Positions 23,009 through 38,950 of a stretch of 43,007 bases of DNA are shown here, one piece after another; the first letter of the stretch is position 1, and each line of letters starts with the position of its first letter. The stretch lies in assembly GCA_949398305.1 (NCBI GenBank), contig CASLVD010000009.1, forward strand, positions 1-43,007, in the 5' to 3' direction. Made by a program: the position numbers and the translations under genes. The notes beneath the pieces are model-generated. The model was not told the DNA's origin. It was given only the letters and a program-made list of their open reading frames with translations, and did not search any database. Source of the DNA: an uncultured Candidatus Melainabacteria bacterium. Lineage in GTDB: Bacteria > Cyanobacteriota > Vampirovibrionia > Gastranaerophilales > Gastranaerophilaceae.

Positions 23009-24727
23009 TTACAAAAGTTCTTTTTCAATTGTTTTGTTATCTGCGGGTTCTGTTGTTACCGGAAGCGCAAAACGGAAGCTTGATCCTTTGTTTTCTTCAC
23101 TATCACACCAGATTGTACCTTTGTGAGCTTTAATAAGCTGCTTTGCAATCGGAAGTCCTAAACCTGTTCCGCCGACTTTTCTGGATAATGAATTTTCGAT
23201 TTGTGTAAATTTATCAAATGCTTTTAGAAGGTTTTCTTCTTTGATTCCGATTCCTTCATCTACTACACTTACTACAATATAATTCCCGTTTAGTGTTTTT
23301 AGTTCGTTTTCAAAGCAGTTATCGGTATTTATATCTTGGGCATTTTTGAGTTCAGAATGTATTGTAATAGATTTTCCGCGCGGAGTAAATTTTATAGCGT
23401 TTGATACAAGGTTCGTTAAAACCTGTCCGAGGCGCTGCGAATCTGCGTAAATATCCGGAAGATTTTCCTGTTCATTTGTACTGAATGTAATTTCGTGTTC
23501 TTTTGCAACGCAGTCAAAGTTTGTTTTTACATTTTCAATAACAGAATGGATATTCATTAACTTGTAATTGAAATCCATTTTGCCTGCTTCAATTTTGTTG
23601 ATATCAAGAATATCGTTGATAATACTTGTAAGGTTTTCGACATTTCGTTTTGCCATGTCAATAAATTTGTTTGCGTTTTCGCCTAATGTTCCGCATCTGC
23701 CGCTAGAAAGAATGCTTAATGCATTTTTTATAGGTGTAAGGGGAGTTCTTAATTCGTGTGAAACTATTGAAATAAATTCGGATTTTATTCGTTCAAGTTT
23801 TTCAAGTTCTTCGTTTTTTTCAATGATTTCTTTATATAAGCCTGCACTTTTTAATGGCAGTGAGACTTGCTGTACAATTGTTTGAAAGTATGTTGCATCA
23901 TCTGTAGAAAAAGGATTTTCCTTAAAGATTTCAATACATCCGAAAAAGTTATCGCCTAAATCGATTGGCGCAAACATATTGTCGTATTGGAAAATATTAA
24001 ATGTTAATTTGCCTGTCGGATTTTTAATATATTTAACTATTTTCAAGTTCTTGTCATCAATTTCAAAAGGAATTTCGCGGTTTTTGAACAGTGATTTATA
24101 ATTAAGGATGGCACGAAGTTTTAATGCGCTCATCAATTCTTCTGAAATATCATAAAGCGAATTGATAATTAAAACAGGTTCTTGTTCAAATCCGAATGAA
24201 ATTGTACAGGTTAAATCAAAGCTTAAAGATTTATCTAAACCTTCAATCATGTACATTAAAAGTTTTTTTGTATCAAGTGTTCCCGCAAATTGAGAGCTTG
24301 TGTTGTAAAGTACATTTAATCTGTATAAACTGTCTGCAAGATCTTTGTTTTTCCCGGAAAGATTATCGAGTTTTTCTTTATTTCTAATGTGTGCGTTAAC
24401 GGTTGTTTGTATAAGTTCATTTGAATAATTTTTCAAAATAATTCCACTGATTAGTTTTGAAATGTCTTCACTGATAACGGTTTCATCTGTTAAAAGCAAA
24501 ATTTGAACATTTTCAATTTTTGATTTTATTTTTTTTATAATAAGATTCAGGTTTATATTTTCAAGTTTGTCATCAATTAAAACAACATCAATCGGAGAAA
24601 TCTCAATTAAATCCAATATAGATGTATTATTACAACAAGAATTAAAATTATTAAATTCTTTGTTTAATAAACTTTTAAACTTGTTATAAATCTCATCGTT
24701 TTCGGTAACTAATAAAATATTCCCCAT
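23009..24727 (-). CDS. Sensor histidine kinase with N-terminal receiver-like and GAF-like domains
   Basis: A cytoplasmic 572 aa kinase with no membrane helix. Residues 1-115 resemble a receiver fold (M-G-N-I-L-L-V-T-E-N-D, with V-V-L-I-D-D near 48-53), but the T-x-K loop is poorly kept. A GAF-like sensor region covers about 135-290, followed by a short coiled linker. The H-box S-I-V-S-H-E-L-R-T-P-L has the phospho-acceptor H324. The ATPase domain shows the N box (L-V-S-N-A-I-K-F-T), D-E-G-I-G-I and G-T-G-L-G-L-P. Its partner could be one of the three response regulators in the window. It ends just before dxr, an unusual pairing. Confidence 0.93.
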   Translation of the reverse strand: MGNILLVTENDEIYNKFKSLLNKEFNNFNSCCNNTSILDLIEISPIDVVLIDDKLENINLNLIIKKIKSKIENVQILLLTDETVISEDISKLISGIILKNYSNELIQTTVNAHIRNKEKLDNLSGKNKDLADSLYRLNVLYNTSSQFAGTLDTKKLLMYMIEGLDKSLSFDLTCTISFGFEQEPVLIINSLYDISEELMSALKLRAILNYKSLFKNREIPFEIDDKNLKIVKYIKNPTGKLTFNIFQYDNMFAPIDLGDNFFGCIEIFKENPFSTDDATYFQTIVQQVSLPLKSAGLYKEIIEKNEELEKLERIKSEFISIVSHELRTPLTPIKNALSILSSGRCGTLGENANKFIDMAKRNVENLTSIINDILDINKIEAGKMDFNYKLMNIHSVIENVKTNFDCVAKEHEITFSTNEQENLPDIYADSQRLGQVLTNLVSNAIKFTPRGKSITIHSELKNAQDINTDNCFENELKTLNGNYIVVSVVDEGIGIKEENLLKAFDKFTQIENSLSRKVGGTGLGLPIAKQLIKAHKGTIWCDSEENKGSSFRFALPVTTEPADNKTIEKELL

Positions 24728-25241: not shown

Positions 25242-25445
25242 ATGAGACTATCCCCGAAAAAAATTAAAATCTTAACTTTATTAGCTCAAGGTTTTACAGA
25301 TAAAGAGATTTCCCAGAAGTTACAGATGTCAACAAGAACGATACAAACACACATTTCCTCAATTGTTTTATCACTGAACGCACGAAATAGGGTTAATGCA
25401 GTAGCATTATATATGCATCAGAACCCGAAATGTAAAATATTATGA
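25242..25445 (+). CDS. Stand-alone LuxR/GerE helix-turn-helix protein
   Basis: A 67 aa protein consisting only of a LuxR-type DNA-binding domain. L-S-P-K-K-I-K-I-L-T-L-L-A-Q-G is followed by D-K-E-I-S-Q-K-L and the recognition helix T-R-T-I-Q-T-H-I. It lacks a receiver or ligand domain, so activity may depend on its level. AGAGGTG six bases upstream supports the start. As first gene of the phage-like cluster, 7 bases before the amidase gene, it is the only candidate transcription regulator there, and it is of a host-like type, not a CI/Cro repressor. Confidence 0.8.
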   Translation: MRLSPKKIKILTLLAQGFTDKEISQKLQMSTRTIQTHISSIVLSLNARNRVNAVALYMHQNPKCKIL

Positions 25446-25452
25446 GGTATTT

Positions 25453-25953
25453 ATGGTTAAACGAATTGTTTTACACTGGAGCGCCGGAAGGTATTATCCT
25501 ACAGAGTTTGAAAAAAATCATTATCATTATTTAATCGATGCTGACGGAAATGTTTATGAAGGTTTTTATAAGCCTGAAGATAATGATAATTGTAATGACG
25601 GAAAGTATGCAGCACATACCGGAGGGGGTAATACAGGCTCTATTGGAGTTTGTATGTGCGGAATGTACGGATATAAATCAAAAACATTCTGCGGCGATTT
25701 TCCGTTAAAAGCTAATCAGTTTGAAGCGTGTATGAAATTTGTGGCTGAGCTTTGCGAAAAGTACGGTCTTGCAATAAATAAAAATACCGTTTTAACGCAT
25801 TATGAATTCGGTCAGGCTAATCCGAAAACAACAAGTTTCGGGAAAATCGATATTACTTATATCCCTTCATATCCCTGGGTAACTAAACAAGATGCTGGAA
25901 ATTTTATTCGTTCTAAAGTTCGCTGGTACAAAGAGAAATATATAAGAGGTTAA
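25453..25953 (+). CDS. N-acetylmuramoyl-L-alanine amidase (Amidase_2, T7 lysozyme type)
   Basis: A 166 aa endolysin that would cut the amide bond between N-acetylmuramic acid and the stem peptide. Zinc ligands are likely H8 (V-L-H-W-S-A-G) and H116 (L-T-H-Y-E), with a third near D133. Another conserved histidine, H55, is in A-A-H-T-G-G-G-N. No signal peptide is present, so it needs a holin to reach the wall. GAGGT before the ATG supports the start. It is one of two different peptidoglycan hydrolases in the cluster; the other is a GH108 lysozyme at the far end. Confidence 0.9.
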   Translation: MVKRIVLHWSAGRYYPTEFEKNHYHYLIDADGNVYEGFYKPEDNDNCNDGKYAAHTGGGNTGSIGVCMCGMYGYKSKTFCGDFPLKANQFEACMKFVAELCEKYGLAINKNTVLTHYEFGQANPKTTSFGKIDITYIPSYPWVTKQDAGNFIRSKVRWYKEKYIRG

Positions 25954-25957
25954 TTTT

Positions 25958-27478
25958 ATGGATGTTAATTATTTTGATTTATCCGGTGGAATCAATCAGG
26001 CTTCCACCAAAACTGAGCTGGGGTTAAATCCTAAAAAGATTTACTGGACAGATTCTGAAAATATTGAAATTTACAACAATAAAGGTATTAAAAAACAAAA
26101 AGGTAATACGTTATTTTTAGAACTGCCCGAAGCTGAAAAGATTACAGGACTTTGCGAAATGGAGTCTGACGGGAATTATAAACTCATTATTACCACAGTT
26201 TCAGGTAAAATTTATGTTTATAATGAAGTAAATGCTTCGGTAACTAAACTTGAAAAAACACTGACCGGTGAAAAAGTACTTTTTGCAAAATTTTTACGCG
26301 GAGTTGTTGTCGCAACAGAATCTGATGCAATGTTTTATATTAAAGATAACAGTAATTTTGATGTTGTTGATTGTAAATTTAAAGACAAAGCAGGTAATAT
26401 TTGTTATCCGGATTGTATTACGGTCTACAAAGGAAGAGTATGGTGCTGCAAGGATTCTACAATATATTATTCCGCACTTGGTACGTATGATGATTTTACA
26501 ACCGAAGAAGATGCCGGATATATTAGTGATTTCCATACGGATACAGATGATATTATCACTATAAATACTTATAAAGATTATCTTGCGATTTATAAGCGCG
26601 AAAAAGTATTTTTATTATCCGGTTCAAATCCTAATAATTTTGTGATAACTCCTTTTGCAGATAAAGGTGCTTATGCAAAAGATACTATTGTAAATGTTGA
26701 TAATAAACAATTTTTCTTAAGTAACGGGATTTATGCATTAGAACAAGTTGGGGAATTGAATCAAATTCGTCTCGGTTCTGAAATTTCACAAAATATTCGC
26801 GAGGAATTTAATAAGTTTGATACCTCAAGAACCGGTGATACTTTTGTTGTTCATTATAAAACCCAACATCAAGTCTGGTATTTCTTCCCGTATCTGAATG
26901 ATAATTTTTATCATACAGTTTGGATAAACGATTATGTGAATTATGCCTGGTATAAACGTATAATTCCGCAAAATATTACAACTGCCTGCATTTATAAATT
27001 GAATGTATTAACTGCAGATGATTCAGGCAAAATTTATATTGAAGATTACGGAACAAGCTTTGACGGTAAAGCAATAAAATTTATGTGGAAGTCGCCGTTT
27101 TTATCACTTGGCAACGTTTTGCACAGAAAATTGATTGATGAATTTTATTTTGTACTGGATGACATACACGACAATAAATTTAAATTTTCTTTATACAAGG
27201 ATTATGACAGTGAATACAAAGATGATGTAGAGCTTATTTACTGCAAACACTTTAATCACTTTATGTGGGCCGGAGATGATACTCCTGATGAAAAAGAATA
27301 TTACTGGAATGACGGTGAATCAGAAGTTCCGGTTTGGCCGGTTACGACCAATGCTATGGAAAAAGCCGAAATCTGCGGCAGTAATTATTCTATTCAGCTT
27401 TGCATTGAAGGCGATGATATTACTGATAACTGTGCAATTATCGGGCTTCAGTTCAGAGAAATTTATAACGATGACTAA
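25958..27478 (+). CDS. Podovirus nozzle / tail-tube B-like structural protein
   Basis: A 506 aa protein rich in beta strands. Its start (F-D-L-S-G-G-I-N-Q near 6-14, then D-S-E-N-I-E-I-Y-N-N and I-K-K-Q-K-G-N-T) has the pattern of podoviral nozzle proteins such as T7 gp12 and relatives, where a G-G-[IV] start is followed by a N-[IV]-x-x-x-x-G-x-[IL]-x-x-R/K-x-G block. The middle has repeated Y-K-[GD] beta segments compatible with a propeller. It would form the distal tube of a short tail. It is assigned by pattern only; a different tail role is possible. It begins 4 bases after the amidase gene. Confidence 0.6.
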   Translation: MDVNYFDLSGGINQASTKTELGLNPKKIYWTDSENIEIYNNKGIKKQKGNTLFLELPEAEKITGLCEMESDGNYKLIITTVSGKIYVYNEVNASVTKLEKTLTGEKVLFAKFLRGVVVATESDAMFYIKDNSNFDVVDCKFKDKAGNICYPDCITVYKGRVWCCKDSTIYYSALGTYDDFTTEEDAGYISDFHTDTDDIITINTYKDYLAIYKREKVFLLSGSNPNNFVITPFADKGAYAKDTIVNVDNKQFFLSNGIYALEQVGELNQIRLGSEISQNIREEFNKFDTSRTGDTFVVHYKTQHQVWYFFPYLNDNFYHTVWINDYVNYAWYKRIIPQNITTACIYKLNVLTADDSGKIYIEDYGTSFDGKAIKFMWKSPFLSLGNVLHRKLIDEFYFVLDDIHDNKFKFSLYKDYDSEYKDDVELIYCKHFNHFMWAGDDTPDEKEYYWNDGESEVPVWPVTTNAMEKAEICGSNYSIQLCIEGDDITDNCAIIGLQFREIYNDD

Positions 27479-27538: not shown

Positions 27539-28501
27539 ATGACAGATTCAAACAAATCAACTTATTCAGCTTTTATTCCTCAGGTATGGAGTCAAAAGTT
27601 GAACCAAATGTTAGACAAAAATTGTGTAATGCTTCAGTGTGTTAACAGAAATTGGGAAGGTGAAATTAAAAATCAGGGTGATACCGTTAAAATTATTACT
27701 CCTGCTGATGTTACAGTTTCAACTTTAACTTCTGATAATATTGAATATTCTGCATTAACACCGACTTCACAAGATTTGGTTATCGATCAAAAGAAATTCT
27801 TCGCATTTAAAATCGATGATGTAGCTCAGGTACAGGCAAATTCTGATATTATGGAAGCTCATTTGACAAATGCTAAAAAAGCAATCGAAGAAGTTCAGGA
27901 TTCATTCCTGTTATCACTTCACACAGATGTAACAGAAGCTAATACTGTAGGTTCTGAAGAATCTCCGATTACATTAAACAAAAATACAATTTATGAACAA
28001 TTTGTAAAATTATCTTTAGCGTTAAAAAATTCAGATGCAGTATACTCAGGCGTAAAACCTTGGGTTGTTATTAACCCTAATATCGAAGCTTACCTGTTAC
28101 AATCTCCTGAATTTATTTCAGCATACAAAGTTGGTGACCAAACTTTAAGAGAAGGTTCAATCGGCAGAATCGCAGGCATGGATGTGTTGGTAAGTACAAA
28201 CTTAACTGACGTTGACGATAAATACTACGTTTTAGCAGGTACAAACGATGCAATTACATTCGCATCCCAACTTGCAAAAATCGAAAGCTTAAGAGATAAA
28301 GACAGCTTCTCAGATTTAGTCAGAGGTTTATATTTATACGGTGCTAAAACAGTTCAGCCTAAAGCTTTGGCCAAAATGATTGTTGCCGCAAGTGAAACTG
28401 TAGCTCCGGCAGCACCTTCAGAAGGAGAAAAAGATCCTGTTGAAGGCGGTAATGGTGACGGAACAGAAACCGGAACTGAAACAGGTGGAGAAACTGTTTA
28501 A
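27539..28501 (+). CDS. Major capsid protein (HK97 fold, P22-coat-like)
   Basis: A 320 aa protein with a typical coat layout. An N-terminal arm (Y-S-A-F-I-P-Q-V-W-S-Q-K-L) is followed by the G-D-T-V-K-I-I-T-P strand, the helix D-I-M-E-A-H-L-T-N-A-K-K-A-I, the W-V-V-I-N-P-N motif, and I-A-G-M-D-V-L-V-S-T-N-L. Coat proteins of podoviruses and siphoviruses share this order. The C terminus (about 295-320) is a low-complexity tail of G, E, T and D that may project from the capsid. The gene is preceded by AAAGGAAA and is less A/T-biased in codon use than its neighbours, as expected of a highly expressed gene. Confidence 0.85.
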   Translation: MTDSNKSTYSAFIPQVWSQKLNQMLDKNCVMLQCVNRNWEGEIKNQGDTVKIITPADVTVSTLTSDNIEYSALTPTSQDLVIDQKKFFAFKIDDVAQVQANSDIMEAHLTNAKKAIEEVQDSFLLSLHTDVTEANTVGSEESPITLNKNTIYEQFVKLSLALKNSDAVYSGVKPWVVINPNIEAYLLQSPEFISAYKVGDQTLREGSIGRIAGMDVLVSTNLTDVDDKYYVLAGTNDAITFASQLAKIESLRDKDSFSDLVRGLYLYGAKTVQPKALAKMIVAASETVAPAAPSEGEKDPVEGGNGDGTETGTETGGETV

Positions 28502-28566: not shown

Positions 28567-28815
28567 ATGTTTAAGAACTTGAAATCTAAAATAAAAGAAC
28601 TTGCAAAAAATGCGGTTTTTGTTGCAGAGTCGCAGCTTGGTTCAGGCAAAGGACAGGAAAAGAAAAAATTAGCTATTGATTATGTAGTAAAAAATCTTCC
28701 TTTTCCGTCTTTCGTGAAGAATATAATTTCGGTGCTTTTATCAAGTTTTATAGATGATGTAATAGAAATATCCGTATCATATATGAAATCATTACCAGCA
28801 AAAGAAGGAGAATAG
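28567..28815 (+). CDS. Small holin-like protein (LLH-type resemblance)
   Basis: An 82 aa protein. A-K-N-A-V-F-V-A-E-S-Q-L-G-S-G-K-G-Q-E-K-K is the kind of stretch seen in the C-terminal part of phage LLH-type holins, with a small-residue helix, S-G-K-G and a K-K-K cluster. The following I-I-S-V-L-L-S-S-F-I region is hydrophobic but short for a membrane helix. It lacks the N-terminal membrane segment of classic LLH holins, so the call is tentative. AGGAG lies before the start. Confidence 0.4.
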   Translation: MFKNLKSKIKELAKNAVFVAESQLGSGKGQEKKKLAIDYVVKNLPFPSFVKNIISVLLSSFIDDVIEISVSYMKSLPAKEGE

Positions 28816-29573: not shown

Positions 29574-30212
29574 ATGAAATTTTTAGAACTTATAAATAAA
29601 TGTTTACTTGAATTGAATTACAGGCAGGTAAATGCATTTTCCGAGCTTATTAAAAATGATCATAAACGAATAAAAACGATTATGAATCTTATTAACAAAG
29701 AAATTTGCGCTGTTGAAGGCTGGAATTTCCTCTTAAAAAGAGAATCTTTGACGCTGAAAGCAGGTGAAACTGAAGTTGATAACACTGTTAACGGAAGAAT
29801 TTTATATTTATTTATTGACGGAAATAAATATAATTTCGTTGATAATGTTGAATCCTTTATGGCAGGAAATGCAAAAACCGGAACGTATTCAAGTTTTTCG
29901 GATAAATTAATATTTCCGAAATTTGATAAAGACAAAAAAATAGATATTATTTACTATACAAAAAATTGTGTAATCGACAGTACGGGTAAAGAAAAAGTCG
30001 ATTTAGAAAATGAAAATGATAAATCACTTATCCCGTTACCGTTTGTAGAACAATTGTTAGTTTACGGAACATGTCTAAGGTTAAAGGCGAATCCTCAGTA
30101 TTATAAATTTTCATACTGGATGAGCATGTACAAAGAGGCTCTTGCAAACTTAAAATCCAAGACTTCTGCTTCTTATTTAAATGCTCCGGTAGTAAAGCTT
30201 TTCAGGAATTAA
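29574..30212 (+). CDS. Head-tail adaptor (T7 gp11-like tail tubular protein A)
   Basis: A 212 aa protein that begins with helical L-E-L-I-N-K-C-L-L-E-L-N-Y-R-Q-V-N-A-F, the usual pattern of podoviral adaptors that attach beneath the portal. A central beta-rich domain follows, with G-R-I-L-Y-L-F-I-D-G and D-I-I-Y-Y-T-K, and a C-terminal helical stretch Y-W-M-S-M-Y-K-E-A-L-A-N-L-K-S. The length (about 200) fits. AAGGAG six bases upstream supports the start. The assignment is by pattern and neighbourhood. Confidence 0.65.
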   Translation: MKFLELINKCLLELNYRQVNAFSELIKNDHKRIKTIMNLINKEICAVEGWNFLLKRESLTLKAGETEVDNTVNGRILYLFIDGNKYNFVDNVESFMAGNAKTGTYSSFSDKLIFPKFDKDKKIDIIYYTKNCVIDSTGKEKVDLENENDKSLIPLPFVEQLLVYGTCLRLKANPQYYKFSYWMSMYKEALANLKSKTSASYLNAPVVKLFRN

Positions 30213-30340: not shown

Positions 30341-30775
30341 ATGAAACAATTAACACAACAACAAAAAAAGTTCGTAACCGAGTATATAAAGGCTCTTGAC
30401 GGTGAATTGGCGGCGAAAAAAGCCGGATACAAGTGTAAAGATTTAAAAGGTTTTTCACAAAGTCTGCTTACAAAAGATTACATAATCCGTGAGATAAAAG
30501 ACCAGTTAAAACTTCAAATTGAATCTTTGAGTGTGCAAAGAGGCTATGTTATTCAAAAACTTTTGCAAATTGCTGAATTTTCACTTGAGCAGGAGGATAT
30601 TTTGGATAAAGACGGCAATCCGACCGGAAAAAGAAAATTACGTGATTCTTCTGCAGGATTGAAGGCTTTGGAAGCTCTTTGCAAGTATTTGGGATTTAGC
30701 ACCGCGCAGAGTGATGATGAATACCGTGAGGCAAAAATTATTACGATTGCGAACCTGGATGATGAAAAAATTTAA
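30341..30775 (+). CDS. Terminase small subunit (Terminase_2-like)
   Basis: A 144 aa DNA-binding protein. The N-terminal L-T-Q-Q-Q-K-K-F-V-T-E-Y and G-E-L-A-A-K-K-A-G-Y-K helix-turn-helix are typical of TerS. It is followed by Y-I-I-R-E-I-K-D-Q-L-K and A-G-L-K-A-L-E-A-L-C-K-Y-L-G, the usual oligomerisation helices. It recognises packaging DNA and recruits the large subunit encoded at 33418. In canonical phages the two are adjacent; here four ORFs separate them. Confidence 0.8.
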   Translation: MKQLTQQQKKFVTEYIKALDGELAAKKAGYKCKDLKGFSQSLLTKDYIIREIKDQLKLQIESLSVQRGYVIQKLLQIAEFSLEQEDILDKDGNPTGKRKLRDSSAGLKALEALCKYLGFSTAQSDDEYREAKIITIANLDDEKI

Positions 30776-30793: not shown

Positions 30794-31018
30794 ATGAAAG
30801 AGAATAAAGATATTGAAAAAATATTATTAAATGATTCCGCTTATGAAAAGATGGTTAAAACCAAAATTGAGCGGGAATTTAAAAAGGAACTTGAGCTGGC
30901 AAAAAAATGCGCAATAAAATTATTACAGATATTAAAAAAGTTCCGAAAGAAAAACTTTTTACAAAATCAGCAACGTATGAAGTTATCAATAAAAACAGTA
31001 AAACAAAATCTTATATAA
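30794..31018 (+). CDS. Small ORF upstream of an A7 slippery site
   Basis: A 74-codon ORF with AAAGG nine bases before its ATG. Its first 38 codons look like real protein (acidic, helical, K-E-L-E-L-A-K-K at the end). After the seven-A run at 30901-30907 the translation is only a lysine/leucine/glutamine shadow of the overlapping next ORF. The A-AAA-AAA heptamer is in the proper zero frame for -1 slippage. The true product is probably the N-terminal part alone, or fused to the next ORF by frameshifting. Confidence 0.45.
   Translation: MKENKDIEKILLNDSAYEKMVKTKIEREFKKELELAKKCAIKLLQILKKFRKKNFLQNQQRMKLSIKTVKQNLI
30901..30907 (+). other. Candidate -1 frameshift site (A AAA AAA)
   Basis: The heptamer is split as xxA AAA AAA in the upstream frame, the canonical arrangement for -1 slippage. 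The new frame stays open to 31143. An assembly indel would give the same picture. Confidence 0.45.
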
Positions 31019-31143
31019 ACGGAGTGCAGGCGGAAGGTTATCTGGGGGCAAAAAACTCAGATAGAGCAAAGCTTTTGAATGGTGAAACCGATTCTTTTGT
31101 CTGCGGGTGTAATTTTGTAAGATTTGTAAAAGTCAAAATGTAA
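30907..31143 (+). CDS. Small hypothetical protein, -1 frame relative to the preceding ORF
   Basis: A 78-codon ORF starting at ATG 30907, whose A is the last of the seven-A run. Beta-rich segments (S-A-T-Y-E-V-I-N-K-N) and C-G-C-N-F-V near the end give it a more protein-like composition than the overlapping part of the ORF at 30794. There is no good Shine-Dalgarno for its own ATG. It may be translated as the C-terminal part of a fused 116 aa product. No family is recognised. Confidence 0.5.
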   Translation: MRNKIITDIKKVPKEKLFTKSATYEVINKNSKTKSYINGVQAEGYLGAKNSDRAKLLNGETDSFVCGCNFVRFVKVKM

Positions 31144-31148
31144 GTATT

Positions 31149-31658
31149 ATGTGTAAATTTCTTAAGGTCAAAGATAGTTGTAAGCTCCTTTCACTGTTGC
31201 ACTATATCCCTTCTGTCGAAAAGTGTTATCGTAAATATTCCAAATATTTTCAGGATGATTTCTCAAAAGATACCGGTTTAAGCTTAAACGGTATTTACCC
31301 CAATTTTTGGATTATTCTGGATTATTCGGACAATTTTATGGGGTTTGTGTTTCTGGATAATTTTGTTGGGATACGCGGGAATTTATTCAGTGCAGAACTC
31401 ACAACATGTTTTGATAGAAAGGCTTGGGGTAGTTTTACCCGATATAGTGCAAAAATTTTTTTAAAGAAATGTTTTGATGAATTTGGCTTAATAAAAGCCC
31501 AGATTTATCCTGATAATTTCCGCATAAGAAATCTTTTGAAAGATTGCGGCTTTGAGTATGAGTCGACTTTGAAAAATGAAACACTAAGAAACGGAAAACC
31601 GCAGGATATTGAGGTTTATTCGTTATACAGAAACTATTATTACAAAACTGCGAGGTAA
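31149..31658 (+). CDS. GNAT-fold phage protein (T7 gp13-like position)
   Basis: A 169 aa protein with a GNAT-like pattern: W-I-I-L-D-Y-S-D-N-F-M-G-F-V-F-L-D strands, an S-A-E-L-T-T-C-F-D-R core strand, W-G-S-F-T-R helix and I-R-N-L-L-K-D-C-G-F-E-Y near the C terminus, the latter typical of N-acetyltransferases. Podoviruses of the T7 group carry GNAT-like proteins (DUF2833/gp13 type) associated with internal virion proteins. It could also be a true acetyltransferase. Translation is probably coupled, as its ATG is five bases after the previous stop and no clear Shine-Dalgarno is present. Confidence 0.55.
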   Translation: MCKFLKVKDSCKLLSLLHYIPSVEKCYRKYSKYFQDDFSKDTGLSLNGIYPNFWIILDYSDNFMGFVFLDNFVGIRGNLFSAELTTCFDRKAWGSFTRYSAKIFLKKCFDEFGLIKAQIYPDNFRIRNLLKDCGFEYESTLKNETLRNGKPQDIEVYSLYRNYYYKTAR

Positions 31659-31660
31659 AT

Positions 31661-33373
31661 ATGGAAAATAACAAAAAAGATAAAAAATCGTTAGATTATA
31701 TTGAAGAACAGTATCTTTTGGGAAATATAATCGAAAAATATGATTATTATGAAGATTCAAGAAGTGCTCAGTTAGCAGATAACAGACTTGTTCGGCATGC
31801 TATATATGATGCTTCTATCCCAAAAGTAAATGCTTGGGATTGCACGGTTCAATTACCGGATATTTATGAATTGGCTCAAACTTTAAAATCACACATTACT
31901 CAGAATTTATATTCACATCCTGACAGTATGTTTGATGTTGAAGGAACCGATTATGAAACCCAAAAATTTGCAAATACGCAAAAAGCTATGCTTGTGAATA
32001 CATTTGAAGCAATGAAGCTTGAAGATGAAATGGAAAAAATTGTGGATTCTGTTGTTGAAACAGGTGAAGTAACACTTTTTGTCGGCTGGGAAACAAAAAC
32101 CAGAAAGACAAGACGTGCAATTTCTATGCGCGAGCAGCTTGAACGTAATACTGATAAAAACTTCGTAATTGAAGATAAAGTTGTTTACGACAATGCAAAA
32201 GTTAAATTTATCAGTTATGAGGATTTTGTTTTTGACAGAACAGAAAGTGATAATTGGGATTCCTGTGCAAAAATTTACAGGACTTATCAAACTTTAGATG
32301 AAATTAAGTCTAACAAGTCAAATAATTTATTGAATGAAGAAAAACTGGAAATGCTGAAAGGAGTGGTGGCAAAAAAATCAAGAAAAAGTAATAATAAATT
32401 AACGACTTATGAAAGAAAAATTGAAGTATTGGAATACTGGGGTGATATAGAACTTCCAAATGGTGAAGTTTTGAAAAATAAATTAATTGTCATAGCCGGA
32501 AGAAGTGTTCTTATAAGGTTTGAAGATAATCCGTTTATAATAAATCCGTTTATCCATGCTAATATTATTGAAAACCCGGCAACAGGACGCGGAATTTCAC
32601 CGTTAAGAGTTGCATTAATTTTGAATAATATATCATCAACAATTTTGAATAAACAGCTTGATGCTCTTGCTTTGATGATGAATCCTCCATATCTTGCACC
32701 AAAAGGCTGTTTTAAAGGCGAACAGGATATTCATCCGGGTAAAATTATAGAATACGATGCTACTTTAATGACCTCTCCGCCGACTCCTATTGCGTTTGAT
32801 AAAGCTATGCAGGGATGGGAATTCTTGAATTACTTTAAATCTACAATTGAAAGTGCGACAGGTATTTTCAAAAATATGGCAGGAAATCTTCAAGCAGCTC
32901 AAAGAACTGCAACTGAATTAAATTATTCAGTCGGCGGTCAGGAAGCAAGATTAAATATGATTCTTGAATCTATAAACAGAAAAGTAATTGTTCCGATGGT
33001 TGAAAAAACCGCAGAAATTATTTCAAATTTCAAATTGGGTAAAGAATCCGTTCTTGCAAATGACAGGGGCAGAGTTTTTCTTGTTGAAATTGATGATAAT
33101 GTGCGCAGATCAAATTATGTATATCGTTACGGAGACAGAAAAGCAACATTTGAACGTAAAGCGCGTTTAAAAGAATTGTTTGAAGTTGTTCATTCCTTCT
33201 TGCAGGTAGATGCGATTGCACAACGTATTGATTGGTTAGAATGTTTCAAATTTGCAATGGAACAATATGGAATTGAAAATGCAAATAATTTCTTAACAGA
33301 AGAAAATGAACAAAATAAATCCCCGCAGGAGCAGGCAGCAGCTCCAAATATTGCGCAAATGAATATGCAATAA
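31661..33373 (+). CDS. Portal protein (podovirus type)
   Basis: A 570 aa protein at the size expected for podoviral portals. The wing and stem pattern is visible as helical segments (A-L-I-L-N-N-I-S-S-T-I-L-N-K-Q-L-D-A-L-A), P-P-Y-L-A-P-K-G, and the conserved tail A-T-E-L-N-Y-S-V-G-G-Q-E-A-R-L-N that precedes the long C-terminal helix. The last 20 residues are Q/A-rich and unstructured, as in many portals. It begins two bases after the GNAT gene and is followed by the large terminase. Confidence 0.8.
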   Translation: MENNKKDKKSLDYIEEQYLLGNIIEKYDYYEDSRSAQLADNRLVRHAIYDASIPKVNAWDCTVQLPDIYELAQTLKSHITQNLYSHPDSMFDVEGTDYETQKFANTQKAMLVNTFEAMKLEDEMEKIVDSVVETGEVTLFVGWETKTRKTRRAISMREQLERNTDKNFVIEDKVVYDNAKVKFISYEDFVFDRTESDNWDSCAKIYRTYQTLDEIKSNKSNNLLNEEKLEMLKGVVAKKSRKSNNKLTTYERKIEVLEYWGDIELPNGEVLKNKLIVIAGRSVLIRFEDNPFIINPFIHANIIENPATGRGISPLRVALILNNISSTILNKQLDALALMMNPPYLAPKGCFKGEQDIHPGKIIEYDATLMTSPPTPIAFDKAMQGWEFLNYFKSTIESATGIFKNMAGNLQAAQRTATELNYSVGGQEARLNMILESINRKVIVPMVEKTAEIISNFKLGKESVLANDRGRVFLVEIDDNVRRSNYVYRYGDRKATFERKARLKELFEVVHSFLQVDAIAQRIDWLECFKFAMEQYGIENANNFLTEENEQNKSPQEQAAAPNIAQMNMQ

Positions 33374-33417: not shown

Positions 33418-34707
33418 ATGAAATATAAATTATTAGATGCACAGAGAAGATTTTTAGAAATTCCGCATAATTTTTCCCTGGACGTTGCAGTATACCAGGG
33501 CGGCTATGGCTCCGGCAAAACCTTTGCCGGAGCCTTGCTGGGGATTTTGCTTGCCGTAAAATTCCCCGGAATTACAGGTCTTGTCGGTGCACAAACTTAC
33601 ACGCTTGTGCGTGATACAACTTTGAAAACTTATTTTGAACATCTTGATAATATCGGTTTTGTAGATAAAGTCGATTATAAATGGGTAAGTGCCGAGCAAA
33701 AATTGGTTTTTCATAACGGCTCTCAAATCCTTTTCAGACATTTTGATGAACCGAATAAGCTTAAATCTTTAAACCTTGGTTTTGTTGAAATCGAAGAAAT
33801 GTCAGATGTCCCTTATGACACATTTAAAATGCTATTAGCACGTATGCGGCAAAGAAAGCATCCAAAATGGCATAATTTTACTTACCGTATATTTGGACAT
33901 ACAAATCCGGAGGTTCAAAAAGGCTGGATTTATAAAACGTTTTACGATAATCCGCCGCCAAATTACAGACTTATCTGTGCTCCAACCACTCAAAACACAT
34001 ATCTTCCGGAAGGCTTTTGTGATGAACTCAAAAAACTTTATGACAAAAGTTATTATGAGATTTTTGTTATGGGGAAAGCCGGAGATTACAGCACAAACCT
34101 TGTTGTGAAAGATTTTACTGATGAAAATGTCAGGGAAATCCAATATCAAAAAGATTTAGATGTTCATATAAGCTGTGATTTTAACGTTGATCCTATGGCG
34201 TGGGTTCTTGCTCATAAAACAGAAGACAAGGTTTTTTATTTTGATGAACTTGTATTGGAAAACACTACAACTTCAAAAACCTGTGACGAGTTTTATGCAA
34301 GATATCCCGAGCATAGAGGAAAAATTATAATAAATGGTGACGCGTCAGGTGATAACAGAAGTTGTACGAGTGAATACACAAATTACGTTATTATCAAAAA
34401 GAAGCTGGAATCTTTTGGTTACGATGTGGATATAAAAATAAAAAGTTTCAACCCGCCGATAAAAAACAGGATAGCAGCCTTTAATGCAAAAGTTAAAAAT
34501 GCAGACGGCAATGTCAGTTTATATATTTCGCCGAAATGTGAAAAACTTTTGTATAACATTTATAACCTGCGTTATCAGGAAGGTTCGTCAAAAATTGATG
34601 TACCGACTTATACCCAGATTAAGCAGACAAAAGAGTTGAAATTTTTATCTCATCCCTTTGATGCGGCATCGTATCTGGTTGATTTTTACTGGCCGATTGT
34701 ACTTTAG
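33418..34707 (+). CDS. terL: Terminase large subunit
   Basis: The DNA-packaging motor, 429 aa. Walker A is Q-G-G-Y-G-S-G-K-T at 27-35. Walker B with the catalytic glutamate is L-G-F-V-E-I-E-E at 120-127. The nuclease domain keeps its acidic metal site: D254 in S-C-D-F-N-V-D-P, D308 in I-N-G-D-A-S-G-D and D415 in H-P-F-D-A-A-S. Both ATPase and nuclease therefore appear functional, which argues against simple decay of the cluster. It is preceded by the portal with a 44-base gap containing GAGGT. Confidence 0.93.
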   Translation: MKYKLLDAQRRFLEIPHNFSLDVAVYQGGYGSGKTFAGALLGILLAVKFPGITGLVGAQTYTLVRDTTLKTYFEHLDNIGFVDKVDYKWVSAEQKLVFHNGSQILFRHFDEPNKLKSLNLGFVEIEEMSDVPYDTFKMLLARMRQRKHPKWHNFTYRIFGHTNPEVQKGWIYKTFYDNPPPNYRLICAPTTQNTYLPEGFCDELKKLYDKSYYEIFVMGKAGDYSTNLVVKDFTDENVREIQYQKDLDVHISCDFNVDPMAWVLAHKTEDKVFYFDELVLENTTTSKTCDEFYARYPEHRGKIIINGDASGDNRSCTSEYTNYVIIKKKLESFGYDVDIKIKSFNPPIKNRIAAFNAKVKNADGNVSLYISPKCEKLLYNIYNLRYQEGSSKIDVPTYTQIKQTKELKFLSHPFDAASYLVDFYWPIVL

Positions 34708-34727: not shown

Positions 34728-34955
34728 ATGGATAATTTAGTAACGTATGCTCCGATAATAGTTGTTGTTTTGGCGTTTTTAATTCAGGAAAGAATTTTTG
34801 TAACGCCTGAACAGCTAGAGCGTAAACACCGTGAAATTATAAAAGATGTTGAAAAGCGATTTGCAACGATAGACAGCTGCGAAGATTTAAAAGGGCAAAT
34901 AACAGAGATGAAAGACAAAATAGATAAAATCTATGATTGTCTGATATTACAATAA
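34728..34955 (+). CDS. Small membrane protein with coiled coil (holin- or spanin-like)
   Basis: A 75 aa protein with a membrane helix at about 6-21 (A-P-I-I-V-V-V-L-A-F-L-I) and a charged coiled-coil C terminus (E-Q-L-E-R-K-H-R-E-I-I). The topology suits a lysis accessory protein or a small pinholin-like protein. AAAGGAAA precedes the start. The following 150 bases hold a perfect 11-bp hairpin and a vestigial start site. Confidence 0.55.
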   Translation: MDNLVTYAPIIVVVLAFLIQERIFVTPEQLERKHREIIKDVEKRFATIDSCEDLKGQITEMKDKIDKIYDCLILQ

Positions 34956-34961
34956 CACTTT

Positions 34962-34987
34962 TGCGGAAGCGGTTTTCCGCTTCCGCA
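34962..34987 (+). other. Perfect 11-bp hairpin
   Basis: TGCGGAAGCGG and CCGCTTCCGCA pair around TTTT. There is no T run on either strand, so it is more likely an RNA stability element or protein site than a terminator. Confidence 0.55.
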
Positions 34988-35035: not shown

Positions 35036-35082
35036 TTGACTATCTTGACGTAATAATTGTTATATTAAACAATAAAGATAGT
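35036..35082 (+). promoter_or_regulatory. Own promoter and nested dyad before the LprI-like gene
   Basis: TTGACT (35036-35041), 19 bases, then an extended -10 TGTTATATT (35058-35066). Two nested inverted repeats cover it: ACTATCTT/AAGATAGT (35039-35046 and 35075-35082) and ATTGTT/AACAAT (35056-35061 and 35068-35073). This is the layout of a separately regulated cargo gene. Confidence 0.5.
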
Positions 35083-35105
35083 TGGAATGTTAAAGGTGGA
35101 ATAAT

Positions 35106-35663
35106 ATGAAAAAAATAATAATAAATTTAATAATATTGGCTCTTTTGTTACTATCTGTGTTTGGAATCTTTTTTTCGATTCGTTATTATGAAAAAACAAA
35201 ACTCTTGAATAAAAAGGTAATTGATTTGTCTTCAAAAATAGAAGTGCAAAGATTAAATATCTTGGAGTTACAAGATGAAATTACAGAAAGTAAATCAACA
35301 CCTAATGTAAAACCTGCAAAACATCCACTTGAAGAAAAACTTCAAGTTTGTATGCAAAATGAAAATTATACAACATCTGGTATGAATGCTTGTGTATATG
35401 ATTCAATTAAGGACTGGGAAAAAGAAATTGATAAAAGTCTTATGCTTTTAAAAGGAGTAACAACTAAAGAACAATATGTTAAAATTCAAACGGCTCAAAA
35501 AGAATGGTTAATTTATAGGGAAAATCAAAGTAAAATAAATTCTGAACTGTTATTAAGTAAACAAGGAACAATTTATACAAATTATCTTGCCGGTATGGAC
35601 GTGGCTATTGTTCAAAAAAGAGCCGAAGAACTTCATAGTTTGTATTATTTTTATTCAAAATAA
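35106..35663 (+). CDS. Membrane-anchored LprI-like (DUF1311) lysozyme-inhibitor-type protein
   Basis: A 185 aa protein. An N-terminal membrane helix (about 4-24) is followed by a coiled coil (28-62) and a DUF1311/LprI-like domain. The DUF1311 marks are C82 and C96 in C-M-Q-N-E-N-Y-T-T-S-G-M-N-A-C, then W104, and A-Q-K-E-W-L-I-Y-R-E-N-Q at 130-141. LprI of Mycobacterium inhibits C-type lysozyme. The membrane-plus-coil design also recalls spanins. It has its own promoter with dyads and higher A/T content than the neighbours, so it may be a cargo gene. It sits directly before a GH108 lysozyme gene, so the target could be that enzyme, a host muramidase or gut lysozyme. The domain match is by eye. 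Confidence 0.65.
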   Translation: MKKIIINLIILALLLLSVFGIFFSIRYYEKTKLLNKKVIDLSSKIEVQRLNILELQDEITESKSTPNVKPAKHPLEEKLQVCMQNENYTTSGMNACVYDSIKDWEKEIDKSLMLLKGVTTKEQYVKIQTAQKEWLIYRENQSKINSELLLSKQGTIYTNYLAGMDVAIVQKRAEELHSLYYFYSK

Positions 35664-35712
35664 TATTCTGCCTTGTTTTGTTAATACTTAATAAAAAAAA
35701 GGAGAATAATAA

Positions 35713-36663
35713 ATGATTAATGATGAAAATTTTAAAACAGCTCTTGATTTTGTTTTTAAATCTGAAGGTGGTTTTTCAGACAGAAAAAGTGACCGTGGCG
35801 GACGGACAAATTTTGGAATTACTCAAAGTACATATAATGGTTATAGAAGAAAACGGGGGTTGCCATATAAAGATGTGAAAGGTATTACAAGAGAAGAAGC
35901 AAAAAATATTTATTATGAAGATTTTTGGAAAGCTTCAGGAGCTCATAATACTGATAATAGAGCTATGGCAATTACTTTGTTTGATACTGCTGTTTTACAT
36001 GGTGTTGAAAATGCTAAAATACTGTATAAAAAAAGTGGAAATAATGTTGATAAACTACTTGATTTAAGGTTGCAAGCATATCAAAATGATGTAAACAAAC
36101 ATCCTGACCAAGGTGAATATTTACAAGGTTGGCAAAATCGAGTAAAGAATCTAAGGAAGAATATTAACAGTATTAATATCGTTCCAAAACAACAACGAGA
36201 AATTTATAAAAATATTCTAGGAACTCCTATTCACTATGATATAAATAAAAACTTACCGAGATTTGCAACGGGCTTTGCTGTACCTATAGAACAAACGACA
36301 CCTCATCAAGTTTCATTTACTCCTGAACAAATAGGAAAAATGAGTCGTGAGGAGTTCGATAAAAATGAAAGCGCAATAATGCACCAATTGCAAACCGGTG
36401 GTCTTAATCAAGAGCCTTCAAGAGATTTTGGCGGTTATCGGAATTCACACACCGGAGATAATCGAATTTATACCGCAGAAGATATTGGTAATTTTTCAAG
36501 CTCGGAATTTAGTCACCATGAACCTGCAATCAATGCTCAGATGAACAGTATAGGAATTCCGACCAATAATGATATGCAAAATTCAGGCGGAACAGTTTAT
36601 ATAGCACCTTATACCAGAAGTGACGGAGTTGAAGTACGCGGTCATTATCGTTCAAGGGGGTAA
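35713..36663 (+). CDS. GH108-type lysozyme with C-terminal virion-motif repeats
   Basis: A 316 aa protein. Residues 1-150 form an N-acetylmuramidase (GH108 family) with E18 in S-E-G-G-F-S-D and the signature D-R-G-G-R-T-N-F-G-I-T, followed by a PG_binding_3-like region (about 115-147). The C-terminal 150 residues do not belong to the enzyme. They hold two copies of a motif, at 202-231 (F-T-P-E-Q-I-G-K-M-S-R-E-E-F) and at 253-282 (Y-T-A-E-D-I-G-N-F-S), that also ends the scaffold-like protein at 28820. This suggests a virion-associated lysozyme. AAGGAG precedes the start. Its stop codon overlaps a GGGGTAAAT repeat. Confidence 0.88.
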   Translation: MINDENFKTALDFVFKSEGGFSDRKSDRGGRTNFGITQSTYNGYRRKRGLPYKDVKGITREEAKNIYYEDFWKASGAHNTDNRAMAITLFDTAVLHGVENAKILYKKSGNNVDKLLDLRLQAYQNDVNKHPDQGEYLQGWQNRVKNLRKNINSINIVPKQQREIYKNILGTPIHYDINKNLPRFATGFAVPIEQTTPHQVSFTPEQIGKMSREEFDKNESAIMHQLQTGGLNQEPSRDFGGYRNSHTGDNRIYTAEDIGNFSSSEFSHHEPAINAQMNSIGIPTNNDMQNSGGTVYIAPYTRSDGVEVRGHYRSRG

Positions 36664-36736
36664 ATATAGTTACAAATGATTTCAATATTACCTCAGGAGT
36701 TGAGCTGCGCAAGGGGTAAATGTAGTTACAAATGAT
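36653..36736 (+). repeat. Interspersed element copy C (36657-36714) plus a partial second unit
   Basis: CAAGGGGGTAAATATAGTTA (36653) recurs as CAAGGGGTAAATGTAGTTA (36710), both continuing CAAATGAT. The 58-base unit between the first GGGG and the second AAGG (36657-36714) has the same ends as copies A, B and D. The tandem start at 36713 shows units can join end to end. The first copy covers the lysozyme stop codon. Confidence 0.6.
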
Positions 36737-36770: not shown

Positions 36771-36808
36771 AGCAGGCAGGGGAATTTACCCCTGCTTGCT
36801 TTTTTTTT
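36771..36808 (+). terminator. Strong terminator after the phage-like cluster
   Basis: AGCAGGCAGGGG (36771-36782) pairs with CCCCTGCTTGCT (36789-36800) with one mismatch, followed by eight or more T. It closes the rightward cluster. Confidence 0.9.
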
Positions 36809-36853: not shown

Positions 36854-38200
36854 ATGAGTGAGTCGAGTCTGGGAATAATTATTTCCAATTGGTTGATAGT
36901 TTTTGTACTGTTACTTGTTAACGGTTTTTTCGTAGCTGCAGAATTTGCTATTGTTAGAGCAAGAAGAACGAAAATCGAACAACTTACCAAAGATGGTAAT
37001 GTTGATGCGAAACTTGCACTTAAAGCTCTTGAAGATATGAATTTCTTTATTGCGGCAGTTCAGGTTGGGGTTACAATCGCAAGTATTGGTATTGGTTGGT
37101 TTGGATCACCTACTATTGAAATGATGATGAAACCATTGCTTGATGAATTCCCGTCTGCTCATGTTTACCTTGCTCCTTTAACTGCGGTTATGGCATTTTT
37201 AGTCGTAACTTTTTTACACGTTGTTATTGGGGAACAGGTTCCTAAATGTATAGCTCTGCAATATCCTGAAAAAATATCTCTATATGTTGCAAAACCTATG
37301 GATTTATTTATGACAATCTCAAAACCGTTTGTTTGGTTTTTGAATATTGCTTGTAACGGGATTTTGAAACTTTTCAGAGTTCCTGTAAGTACAGCTCGGG
37401 TTGTTCATACTATCGAAGATTTAGACTTGCTTGTTGATACAAGTTATGATGAAGGTGTTCTAAACGAAACAGAAAAAGATATGATTCATAACGTGTTTAA
37501 GTTTTCTGATTTAACTGCAAGAGAAGTTATGATTCCTCGTACAGATATGGTTTGTGTACCGTTGGATATGACGCTTGATGAACTTAATAAAGTTGCAACT
37601 GAAAATCAATATACAAGATATCCTGTTTATGATGGTGATATTGATCATATTACAGGTTTAATCCATGTTAAGGATTTGTATTCTTTAGCGTTGAAAGATG
37701 AAGTTTGTCCTATTGAGAAAGTTCAACGAACAGTAATGCTTGTTCCTGAAACTATTACAATGGACAATTTGGTTAGAGAATTCAAGAAAAATAAAAGCCA
37801 GATGGCAATTGTTGTCGATGAATTTGGTGGAACTTCAGGTATAATTACTTTGGAAGATGTTTTGGAAGAAATTTTCGGTGATGTTCAGGATGAATTTGAC
37901 GAGGAAGTTGAATTTGATATAAAAGAAATTAAGCCGAATCATTACCTTGCAAATGGTATGATGAGACTTGATGAATTAGCAAATTACTTTGATGTTCCTG
38001 ATGAAAAACTTGAAGATGAAGATGTTGATACAATTGCAGGTCTTGTTGTTAAAGAGCTTGGACGTTTAGCGCAATTAGATGATGTTGTAAAATACCACGA
38101 ATTTGTGTTCACAGTAAAAGAAATTGACGGTGCACGTATTACTAAGCTTCTTATTGTAAAAGAAGAACCTTCTGAAAGTATAAATGTAAAGGCTGAATAA
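36854..38200 (+). CDS. CNNM/CBS-domain transporter of the HlyC/CorC family
   Basis: A 448 aa membrane protein. A DUF21/CNNM domain with three to four helices covers about 8-170 (N-G-F-F-V-A-A-E-F-A-I-V-R-A-R motif at 23-37). A CBS pair follows (M-I-P-R-T-D-M-V near 222, Y-P-V-Y-D-G-D near 257, M-A-I-V-V-D-E-F-G-G near 315). A CorC/HlyC acidic domain ends it. Family members are linked to magnesium or divalent-cation export. A TATAAT at 36821-36826 is a likely -10. AAAGG just before the ATG supports the start. This is host chromosome just right of the phage-like cluster. Confidence 0.92.
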   Translation: MSESSLGIIISNWLIVFVLLLVNGFFVAAEFAIVRARRTKIEQLTKDGNVDAKLALKALEDMNFFIAAVQVGVTIASIGIGWFGSPTIEMMMKPLLDEFPSAHVYLAPLTAVMAFLVVTFLHVVIGEQVPKCIALQYPEKISLYVAKPMDLFMTISKPFVWFLNIACNGILKLFRVPVSTARVVHTIEDLDLLVDTSYDEGVLNETEKDMIHNVFKFSDLTAREVMIPRTDMVCVPLDMTLDELNKVATENQYTRYPVYDGDIDHITGLIHVKDLYSLALKDEVCPIEKVQRTVMLVPETITMDNLVREFKKNKSQMAIVVDEFGGTSGIITLEDVLEEIFGDVQDEFDEEVEFDIKEIKPNHYLANGMMRLDELANYFDVPDEKLEDEDVDTIAGLVVKELGRLAQLDDVVKYHEFVFTVKEIDGARITKLLIVKEEPSESINVKAE

Positions 38201-38837: not shown

Positions 38838-38950
38838 AATATATTGTTACGAAATATTACAAAACAAGCTGTAAATCCTAAAGTTTATGCTGAAAATGCC
38901 GTAAACATGATTAAGCAACGAATGACTACATGTCGAAAGGATTACGAAAA

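Follow-up and report, generated by a model that had tools for sequence, protein, structure and literature searches.

The window analyzed here, meaning the whole stretch of 43,007 nucleotides from contig CASLVD010000009.1 of an uncultured Candidatus Melainabacteria bacterium (assembly GCA_949398305.1), holds a core of 13 phage-like genes, running from an HTH ORF through a holin-like gene, and a cassette of two genes that directly follows it. The features are listed below.

23009..24727, - strand: histidine kinase, left flank of the core, found there in relatives too
25242..25445, + strand: LuxR/GerE-type HTH-like ORF of 67 aa, named by eye from its sequence; first core gene
25453..25953, + strand: peptidoglycan amidase (Amidase_2), the hydrolase that is conserved in the cluster
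25958..27478, + strand: virion structural protein (phrog_3287)
27539..28501, + strand: major head protein (phrog_267)
28567..28815, + strand: small conserved protein of 82 aa
28820..29497, + strand: scaffold-like protein of 225 aa, ending in the motif of the module described below (FTREEIGRMSGDEFTRNEKMIMDQLKNGLIK)
29574..30212, + strand: tail-like protein (phrog_6013)
30341..30775, + strand: terminase small subunit
30907..31143, + strand: conserved ORF of 78 aa (~116 aa in relatives)
31149..31658, + strand: GNAT-like protein (sub-threshold Acetyltransf_3)
31661..33373, + strand: portal or head-tail connector (phrog_332)
33418..34707, + strand: terminase large subunit (TerL)
34728..34955, + strand: holin-like protein of 75 aa with one hydrophobic segment, last core gene before the slot
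34962..34987, + strand: perfect 11-bp hairpin between core and cassette
35039..35082, no strand: inverted repeat upstream of the LprI gene
35106..35663, + strand: LprI-domain (PF07007) protein of 185 aa with an N-terminal membrane anchor; proposed periplasmic immunity protein
35713..36192, + strand: GH108 muramidase-like catalytic domain (residues 1-160) with EGG motif
36265..36663, + strand: residues 185-316 of that protein, its C-terminal module, with two helical motifs of scaffold type plus a YTRSDGVEVRGHYRS hairpin; proposed tail for capsid loading
36657-36680 and 36713-36736, no strand: 24-bp direct repeat, just past the GH108 stop
36771..36800, + strand: strong intrinsic-terminator-like hairpin closing the cassette
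36854..38200, + strand: host gene, CorC-like (named by eye from its sequence), marking the same insertion site in relatives

The holin-like protein matches Holin_BhlA at 17.1 bits, below the Pfam cut-off of 22.6, and neither integrase nor replication genes were recognized in the core or its flanks. Cassettes aside, gene order is nearly constant in 62 mapped loci (the window, L060, and L119-L178) wherever the stretch is complete and the cluster unsplit; the histidine kinase stands on the left in many loci of the same genus, and the same host genes on the right in part of these. The kinase (23009-24727) is a divergent hybrid one, and its presence with the LuxR-type HTH ORF (25242-25445) at the start of the cluster makes two-component control possible, a form of regulation known for gene transfer agents (GTAs). 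To the right, positions 38930-41008 encode a 692-aa protein, here named “MGLAASQARFL,” that matched no Pfam family above cut-off; its homologs adjoin the holin-like gene in many genera, and the family often lies directly after the cluster.

The first cassette gene, as the sequence-only reading had claimed, encodes a protein with a DUF1311/LprI-like domain and a membrane helix. An HMM search returned PF07007 at residues 82-176 of ORF 35106-35663 (E = 6.1e-10; 39.9 bits against a Pfam cut-off of 22), the sole LprI match in its own 1.92-Mb genome, and residues 4-22 form a strongly hydrophobic segment (mean Kyte-Doolittle value 2.98). Cys82 and Cys96 are invariant in 30 of 30 aligned proteins, so that the protein has a score above cut-off, an anchor or export segment, and conserved cysteines, as befits a PF07007 family member. 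As to the coiled coil of the earlier reading, residues 7-66 gave only sub-threshold matches to DivIC (E = 0.065) and to Rz-like spanins (E = 0.04), and a single-protein search of IMG/VR found no relatives.

The family name invites the statement, made in the earlier reading, that LprI blocks lysozyme. The name and the match are real; the function carries over less well. In Mycobacterium tuberculosis LprI, a separate MliC domain is sufficient for lysozyme resistance, and ScwA, which has PF07007 only, gave no protection against lysozyme (PMC7933661). A Pfam search at E <= 1 found no MliC domain in the window's protein, which to that extent differs from the M. tuberculosis LprI type. In Salmonella Dublin, a PF07007 protein serves as immunity partner to a cell-wall effector, a pairing supported by competition assays (PMC8867033), and DUF1311/LprI is listed among domains implicated in immunity to type VI secretion system (T6SS) effectors (PMC12135965). 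The PF07007 immunity partners of T6SS lysozyme-like effectors are the better precedent.

The second gene, ORF 35713-36663 (+ strand, 316 aa), begins 49 bases downstream on the same strand, which agrees with the coordinates, strands, and direct adjacency given for the LprI-type gene (35106-35663) and the lysozyme gene beside it. It matches GH108 (E = 9.7e-24; 84.2 bits against a Pfam cut-off of 21.2) and the endolysin family phrog_315 (E = 9.5e-32). Its E18-G19-G20 (EGG), the GH108 catalytic motif, is invariant in eight of eight proteins, and it has no hydrophobic export signal (best 19-residue mean, 0.93). No close relatives were found in IMG/VR, where an alignment search found only distant GH108 genes of phage contigs.

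By sequence comparison, this protein is a chimera of a catalytic half and a recurrent module. Neither the module nor the relatives with other enzymes at this site figured in the sequence-only reading, and most of the significance lies in them. The module, residues 185-316, recurs in many proteins of relatives that have quite different N-terminal halves, including lipase-like (sub-threshold Lipase_3) and transglycosylase-like (sub-threshold) ones as well as PBECR1 nuclease and DUF6973 domains, both over cut-off. Third-position GC fits a fusion, since the GH108 catalytic half (0.14) resembles the LprI gene (0.16) and the module half is higher (0.26; core genes, 0.23-0.34). Three further module proteins are encoded on other contigs of the same genome (L118:8425-9942, L117:2956-4740, and L116:6847-8001); one is a PBECR1 nuclease (E = 1.9e-7), one is related to it and resembles it at the N terminus, and one is lipase-like, and all are candidates for cargo supplied in trans.

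The cassette occupies a site with changing contents. Among 13 same-genus loci in which the holin-like gene and the CorC marker are both present, seven have the slot filled: with GH108 and LprI in the window, a lipase-like enzyme in L120, DUF6973 in L121, nuclease-like enzymes in L123, L125, and L127 (the last just before the holin-like gene), and in L119 a lysozyme-like enzyme whose module is a separate ORF. The slot holds nothing, or only a 60-aa ORF, in the other six (L124, L128, L130, L131, L132, and L161). Most of the same-slot enzymes, GH108 included, have the C-terminal module in common. A second LprI-GH108 pair lies between the portal and TerL genes of the same cluster type in G111 (L060). 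Synonymous divergence (dS) between the window and G041 falls toward the slot (virion protein, 1.15; portal, 0.30; TerL, 0.21; holin-like, 0.05) and then rises to 0.54 in the CorC-like gene, which fits recombination beside the slot. Just past the GH108 stop, the second copy of the 24-bp direct repeat looks like a remnant of the 3' end of another effector, a trace of cassette exchange; a 15-bp repeat is also present, at 36625 and 36696.

Other effectors have recurrent neighbors as well: most DUF6973 effectors adjoin an opposite-strand ORF of ~114-139 aa, and lysozyme-like effectors follow an upstream ORF of 162-227 aa, and partner genes therefore seem general. Four such partner proteins were run against Pfam, and none matched. 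Module-free lipase-like ORFs of 217-250 aa have a fixed place between TerL and the holin-like gene in L297, L299, L301-L304, L307, L325, and L344, and such ORFs occur at this junction in several genera. On an 8.7-kb contig of G031 (L150/L293), two TerL copies and a lysozyme-like fragment and DUF6973 effector lie in tandem, an arrangement that may be an assembly artifact.

The two cassette genes had been read as a meaningful unit, and their pairing is indeed not a chance one, recurring in other genomes. Searching 194 related genomes with the LprI protein gave matches in 32, its own included. In the fetched stretches, the window's among them, 12 of 37 LprI ORFs are followed directly, after 22-73 bases and on the same strand, by a GH108 ORF; among the 12 are GH108 fragments in L036 and L038 (72 and 55 aa) and short frames in L050 and L055 (132 and 150 aa). 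Another 20 of the 37 look like orphans, with no GH108 and no module ORF within 1500 bases. The LprI genes of L033 and L057 and one of two in L051 have other module effectors nearby; the first of the L049 copies is in tandem before the paired copy, and the LprI gene of L065 faces a broken GH108 gene on the opposite strand.

When counted from the GH108 side, among the top 30 matches there are 20 loci with a GH108 ORF, and half of these (10/20) have LprI directly upstream: six of the eight GH108 ORFs with an in-frame module, and four of the 12 without a module in the same ORF. Seven of these 12 (L079, L085, L088, L089, L090, L092, and L093) have no LprI. The GH108-module genes of G089 and G052 also lack LprI and have instead an opposite-strand protein with a signal-like N terminus. 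Within the family, PF07007 is widespread, occurring in 99 of 288 genomes; it was found in none of 50 GH108-bearing viral contigs (the best 50 of 80). An inhibitor-enzyme relation between the two proteins is our best guess from these genomic patterns. The system shows the features of polymorphic toxins, namely, a common module with a putative trafficking role joined to varied enzymes and an immunity-type gene that is recurrently adjacent.

The claim that the LprI gene has its own extended -10 promoter did not hold up: the string TG-N-TATATT can be read at 35058-35066, with TTGACG at 35045 only 10 bases away, and sigma-70-like sites between 34700 and 37000 number 11, against 10.6 (SD, 3.3) in shuffled sequences, which is no excess over chance. 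The nested inverted repeats described there are present, with outer arms at 35039-35046 and 35075-35082 (8/8 pairs) and a 6-base inner pair read by eye; their stability as RNA is only modest (z = -2.35; equally stable in 3 of 200 shuffles). The hairpins at 34962-34987 and 36771-36800 suggest that the cassette is transcribed apart from the core.

The module has a counterpart inside the core. In every locus that has a head protein gene (46 of 46), the extreme C terminus of the scaffold-like protein is the core motif of the module. A profile built from only the last 42 residues of these 46 scaffold-like proteins was searched against 6472 ORFs and found the GH108 protein of the window (E = 5e-21), with two copies of the motif. 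The 60 non-seed ORFs found, the GH108 protein being one, were classified by eye as effector-like proteins, module fragments, and further scaffold copies. Comparison of the scaffold with the effector module by hhalign was strong (99%; E = 3e-18), and a ~300-aa protein encoded between the portal and head protein genes of related phage contigs also aligned with the scaffold, C terminus to C terminus (87%; E = 4e-6). Plain HMMER with the scaffold motif gave no significant match to seven phage proteins at the scaffold position (E, 0.13-1.7), and it is the profile-profile comparison that points to possible homology with the scaffolds of true phages.

AlphaFold2 predicted long helices and three short C-terminal ones (197-202, 205-210, and 212-220) for the scaffold-like protein, with a mean pLDDT of 77; for the module, at a pLDDT of only 65, it predicted helices at 20-24, 28-33, and 35-43, then 71-75 and 79-95, and then a hairpin. 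Foldseek matches to the scaffold model were weak, with one unnamed match at E <= 0.001 and a “Scaffolding protein” at E = 0.019. As modeled, the 225-aa protein has the marks of a phage scaffold: it is mainly helical and ends in a helix-turn-helix, and its gene is near that of the head protein. The predicted C-terminal helices resemble the helix-loop-helix of P22 gp8, in which two C-terminal helices hold the coat protein and removal of 11 terminal residues abolishes coat binding (PMC9965877). Because the motif is the C terminus of the scaffold, where phage scaffolds bind coat protein, we infer a role for the module in loading effectors into the head; the tail of the GH108 protein probably loads the enzyme into the virus shell. 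Homogenization of modules within genomes was also considered: across effector classes, module identity had a median of 0.55 within genomes (14 pairs) and 0.44 between genomes (238 pairs), only slightly higher within. The effect is strong in G012 and G089 and absent elsewhere, and since it is weak and patchy it is not used as evidence.

TerL matches were found in 93 of 194 relatives at E <= 1e-60 and in 99 of 194 at E <= 0.001. Close matches are mostly in Candidatus Gastranaerophilales or Melainabacteria metagenome-assembled genomes (MAGs), many from guts; a few labeled Fusobacterium or Muribaculaceae look like misnamed MAGs. In ten close pairs, dN/dS was 0.03-0.07 in the two flanking genes, kinase and CorC, 0.10-0.28 in the scaffold, and 0.00-0.19 in the remaining core genes, the GNAT-like one being highest. 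Core-gene protein distances follow the distances seen in the host genes that flank the core (Mantel r, 0.33-0.87; n, 12-21; p <= 0.011), a correlation to which linkage contributes. As judged from these ratios and distances, the cluster is vertically inherited in Candidatus Gastranaerophilales under strong purifying selection. IMG/VR lists the clusters of L179-L199 as uncultivated viruses, yet they look like vertically inherited host loci.

Several same-genus genomes have TerL and the head protein gene on different contigs; in G015, for example, the TerL gene is inside a 267-kb contig and the head protein gene is on another. In L151-L159 (G039, G040, G003, G037, G016, G001, G015, G030, and G011), TerL and the holin-like gene lie apart from the remaining cluster, a split layout that would hardly be usable by a prophage. 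The cluster resembles GTAs in that no integration or replication genes were recognized in the core and flanks and in that it is inherited vertically under purifying selection. Gut Gastranaerophilales appear to have tamed a virus shell.

We lean, with somewhat better than even confidence, toward reading the pair as an effector-immunity cassette in an exchangeable slot of a domesticated, GTA-like phage cluster. A broader proposal, which we hold tentatively and with confidence a little short of even, is that the cluster serves capsid-based protein delivery: a polymorphic arsenal of GH108, lipase-like, nuclease-like, and other enzymes would be loaded into a GTA-like head via a tail copied from the scaffold, each enzyme would come with its own immunity gene, and LprI would be the GH108 antidote. 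The GH108 protein would be made in the cytosol and, its module binding coat protein as the scaffold does, would be drawn into the assembling head; it would be released with the particles and would cut the peptidoglycan of a recipient cell, and anchored LprI on the periplasmic side would neutralize it and so protect the producer and its kin. Several points weigh on the other side: a short-tailed particle would have to bring its enzyme through the envelope, many LprI genes stand alone (20 of 37), the GH108-module genes of G089 and G052 lack LprI, module-free lipase-like ORFs occupy the junction of TerL and the holin-like gene in several genera, the Foldseek matches of the scaffold model are weak, and the module model has a low pLDDT. 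Some module proteins, including ones of the same genome, lie far from the cluster, and a different trafficking route is therefore possible.

An ordinary lysis cassette, in which a GH108 endolysin frees the particles as the cycle ends, together with the holin-like protein and a membrane protein of LprI/Rz type, and in which LprI delays or tunes lysis, would account for the phrog_315 endolysin match (E = 9.5e-32), the adjacent 75-aa protein with its one hydrophobic segment, and the N-terminal transmembrane segment and weak Rz-like match (E = 0.04) of the LprI protein. We consider it rather unlikely. The conserved hydrolase of the cluster is the amidase encoded at 25453, and relatives leave the same site vacant or fill it with lipase- or nuclease-like enzymes. 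The BhlA match scores under its cut-off, none of 50 GH108 viral contigs (the best 50 of 80) gave a PF07007 match, and an endolysin has no need of a scaffold-like tail. The lysis-timing role put forward in the sequence-only reading is not supported either, given the conserved amidase gene of the cluster, the variety of slot occupants of which GH108 is only one, and the lack of PF07007 matches in those 50 viral contigs. The exclusion arrangement proposed there is retained as putative protection from incoming particles that carry GH108.

It is also improbable, in our estimate, that the module is an unrelated secretion signal or cell-wall targeting tail borrowed by the 225-aa protein, which would leave GH108 and LprI an effector and its immunity protein and remove them from the capsid. 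The three module proteins on other contigs would fit such a tail, as would the hairpin part (YTRSDGT...), which is absent from the scaffold; against it stand the motif at the scaffold C terminus in all 46 loci that encode a head protein, the alignment there of related phage proteins at the scaffold position, and the concentration of module matches in cluster-bearing genomes (89 of 93 genomes with a strong TerL match and 19 of 101 without, a contrast that is partly trivial since the profile also matches the scaffold itself). That LprI guards the bacterium from animal lysozyme in the gut, the GH108 neighborhood being incidental, is suggested by the family name and the gut hosts; repeated direct pairing with one GH108 family and the lack of lysozyme resistance with PF07007-only ScwA (PMC7933661) make it very unlikely.

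The favored reading, an effector-immunity cassette with a putative capsid-loading tail, has partial counterparts. MuF polymorphic toxins of temperate phages also join a toxin to a phage head-associated domain, with a small putative immunity neighbor and swappable toxins; they differ in using the MuF trafficking domain and a temperate phage, where here there would be a scaffold-type C-terminal tail and a domesticated cluster (PMC5576092). The capsid targeting sequence of T4 is N-terminal and cleaved. T4 internal proteins and Alt are likewise loaded into the phage head and injected, but they have no known immunity partners and their cargo serves infection; for Alt, packaging is described in PMC5512222. 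The same source treats polyvalent proteins and PBECR nucleases, for which virion packaging is predicted. A PBECR1 domain is also present in one of the module proteins encoded here; the effectors here are short, with one enzyme each and a common C-terminal tail. RcGTA-type GTAs are also small, vertically inherited phage structural clusters that lack replication and integration genes and in some cases are divided among loci. The present cluster belongs to a head-tail-connector (PF12236/phrog_332) lineage in Gastranaerophilales and has effector cassettes. Excerpts of a GTA review (PMC11841831) contain a single passage about genes borne close to a GTA and no mention of protein cargo. T6SS pairs share with the cassette a PF07007 envelope protein and a peptidoglycan hydrolase (PMC8867033, PMC12135965), whereas here the effector family is GH108 and the immunity gene is upstream. 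The Bxa toxin of Bacteroides prophages, with two immunity proteins, is also a prophage-encoded polymorphic toxin family of the gut, but its shared domain is N-terminal and its enzyme and carrier are different (PMC11699363). MuF toxins, polyvalent proteins, and T4 Alt are known or predicted packaged effectors of true phages, and the present case is new in its carrier, tail, and partner; we found no earlier report of such an effector-carrying cluster in the open-licence literature.

If this interpretation is true, protein-effector delivery would be added to the roles of domesticated phage heads, with a natural counterpart to the engineered loading of cargo by P22 scaffold fusions. PF07007, named for one function and shown to have another in T6SS pairs, would gain a clear enzyme-partner test, and the finding would concern widespread gut bacteria that have few known weapons.
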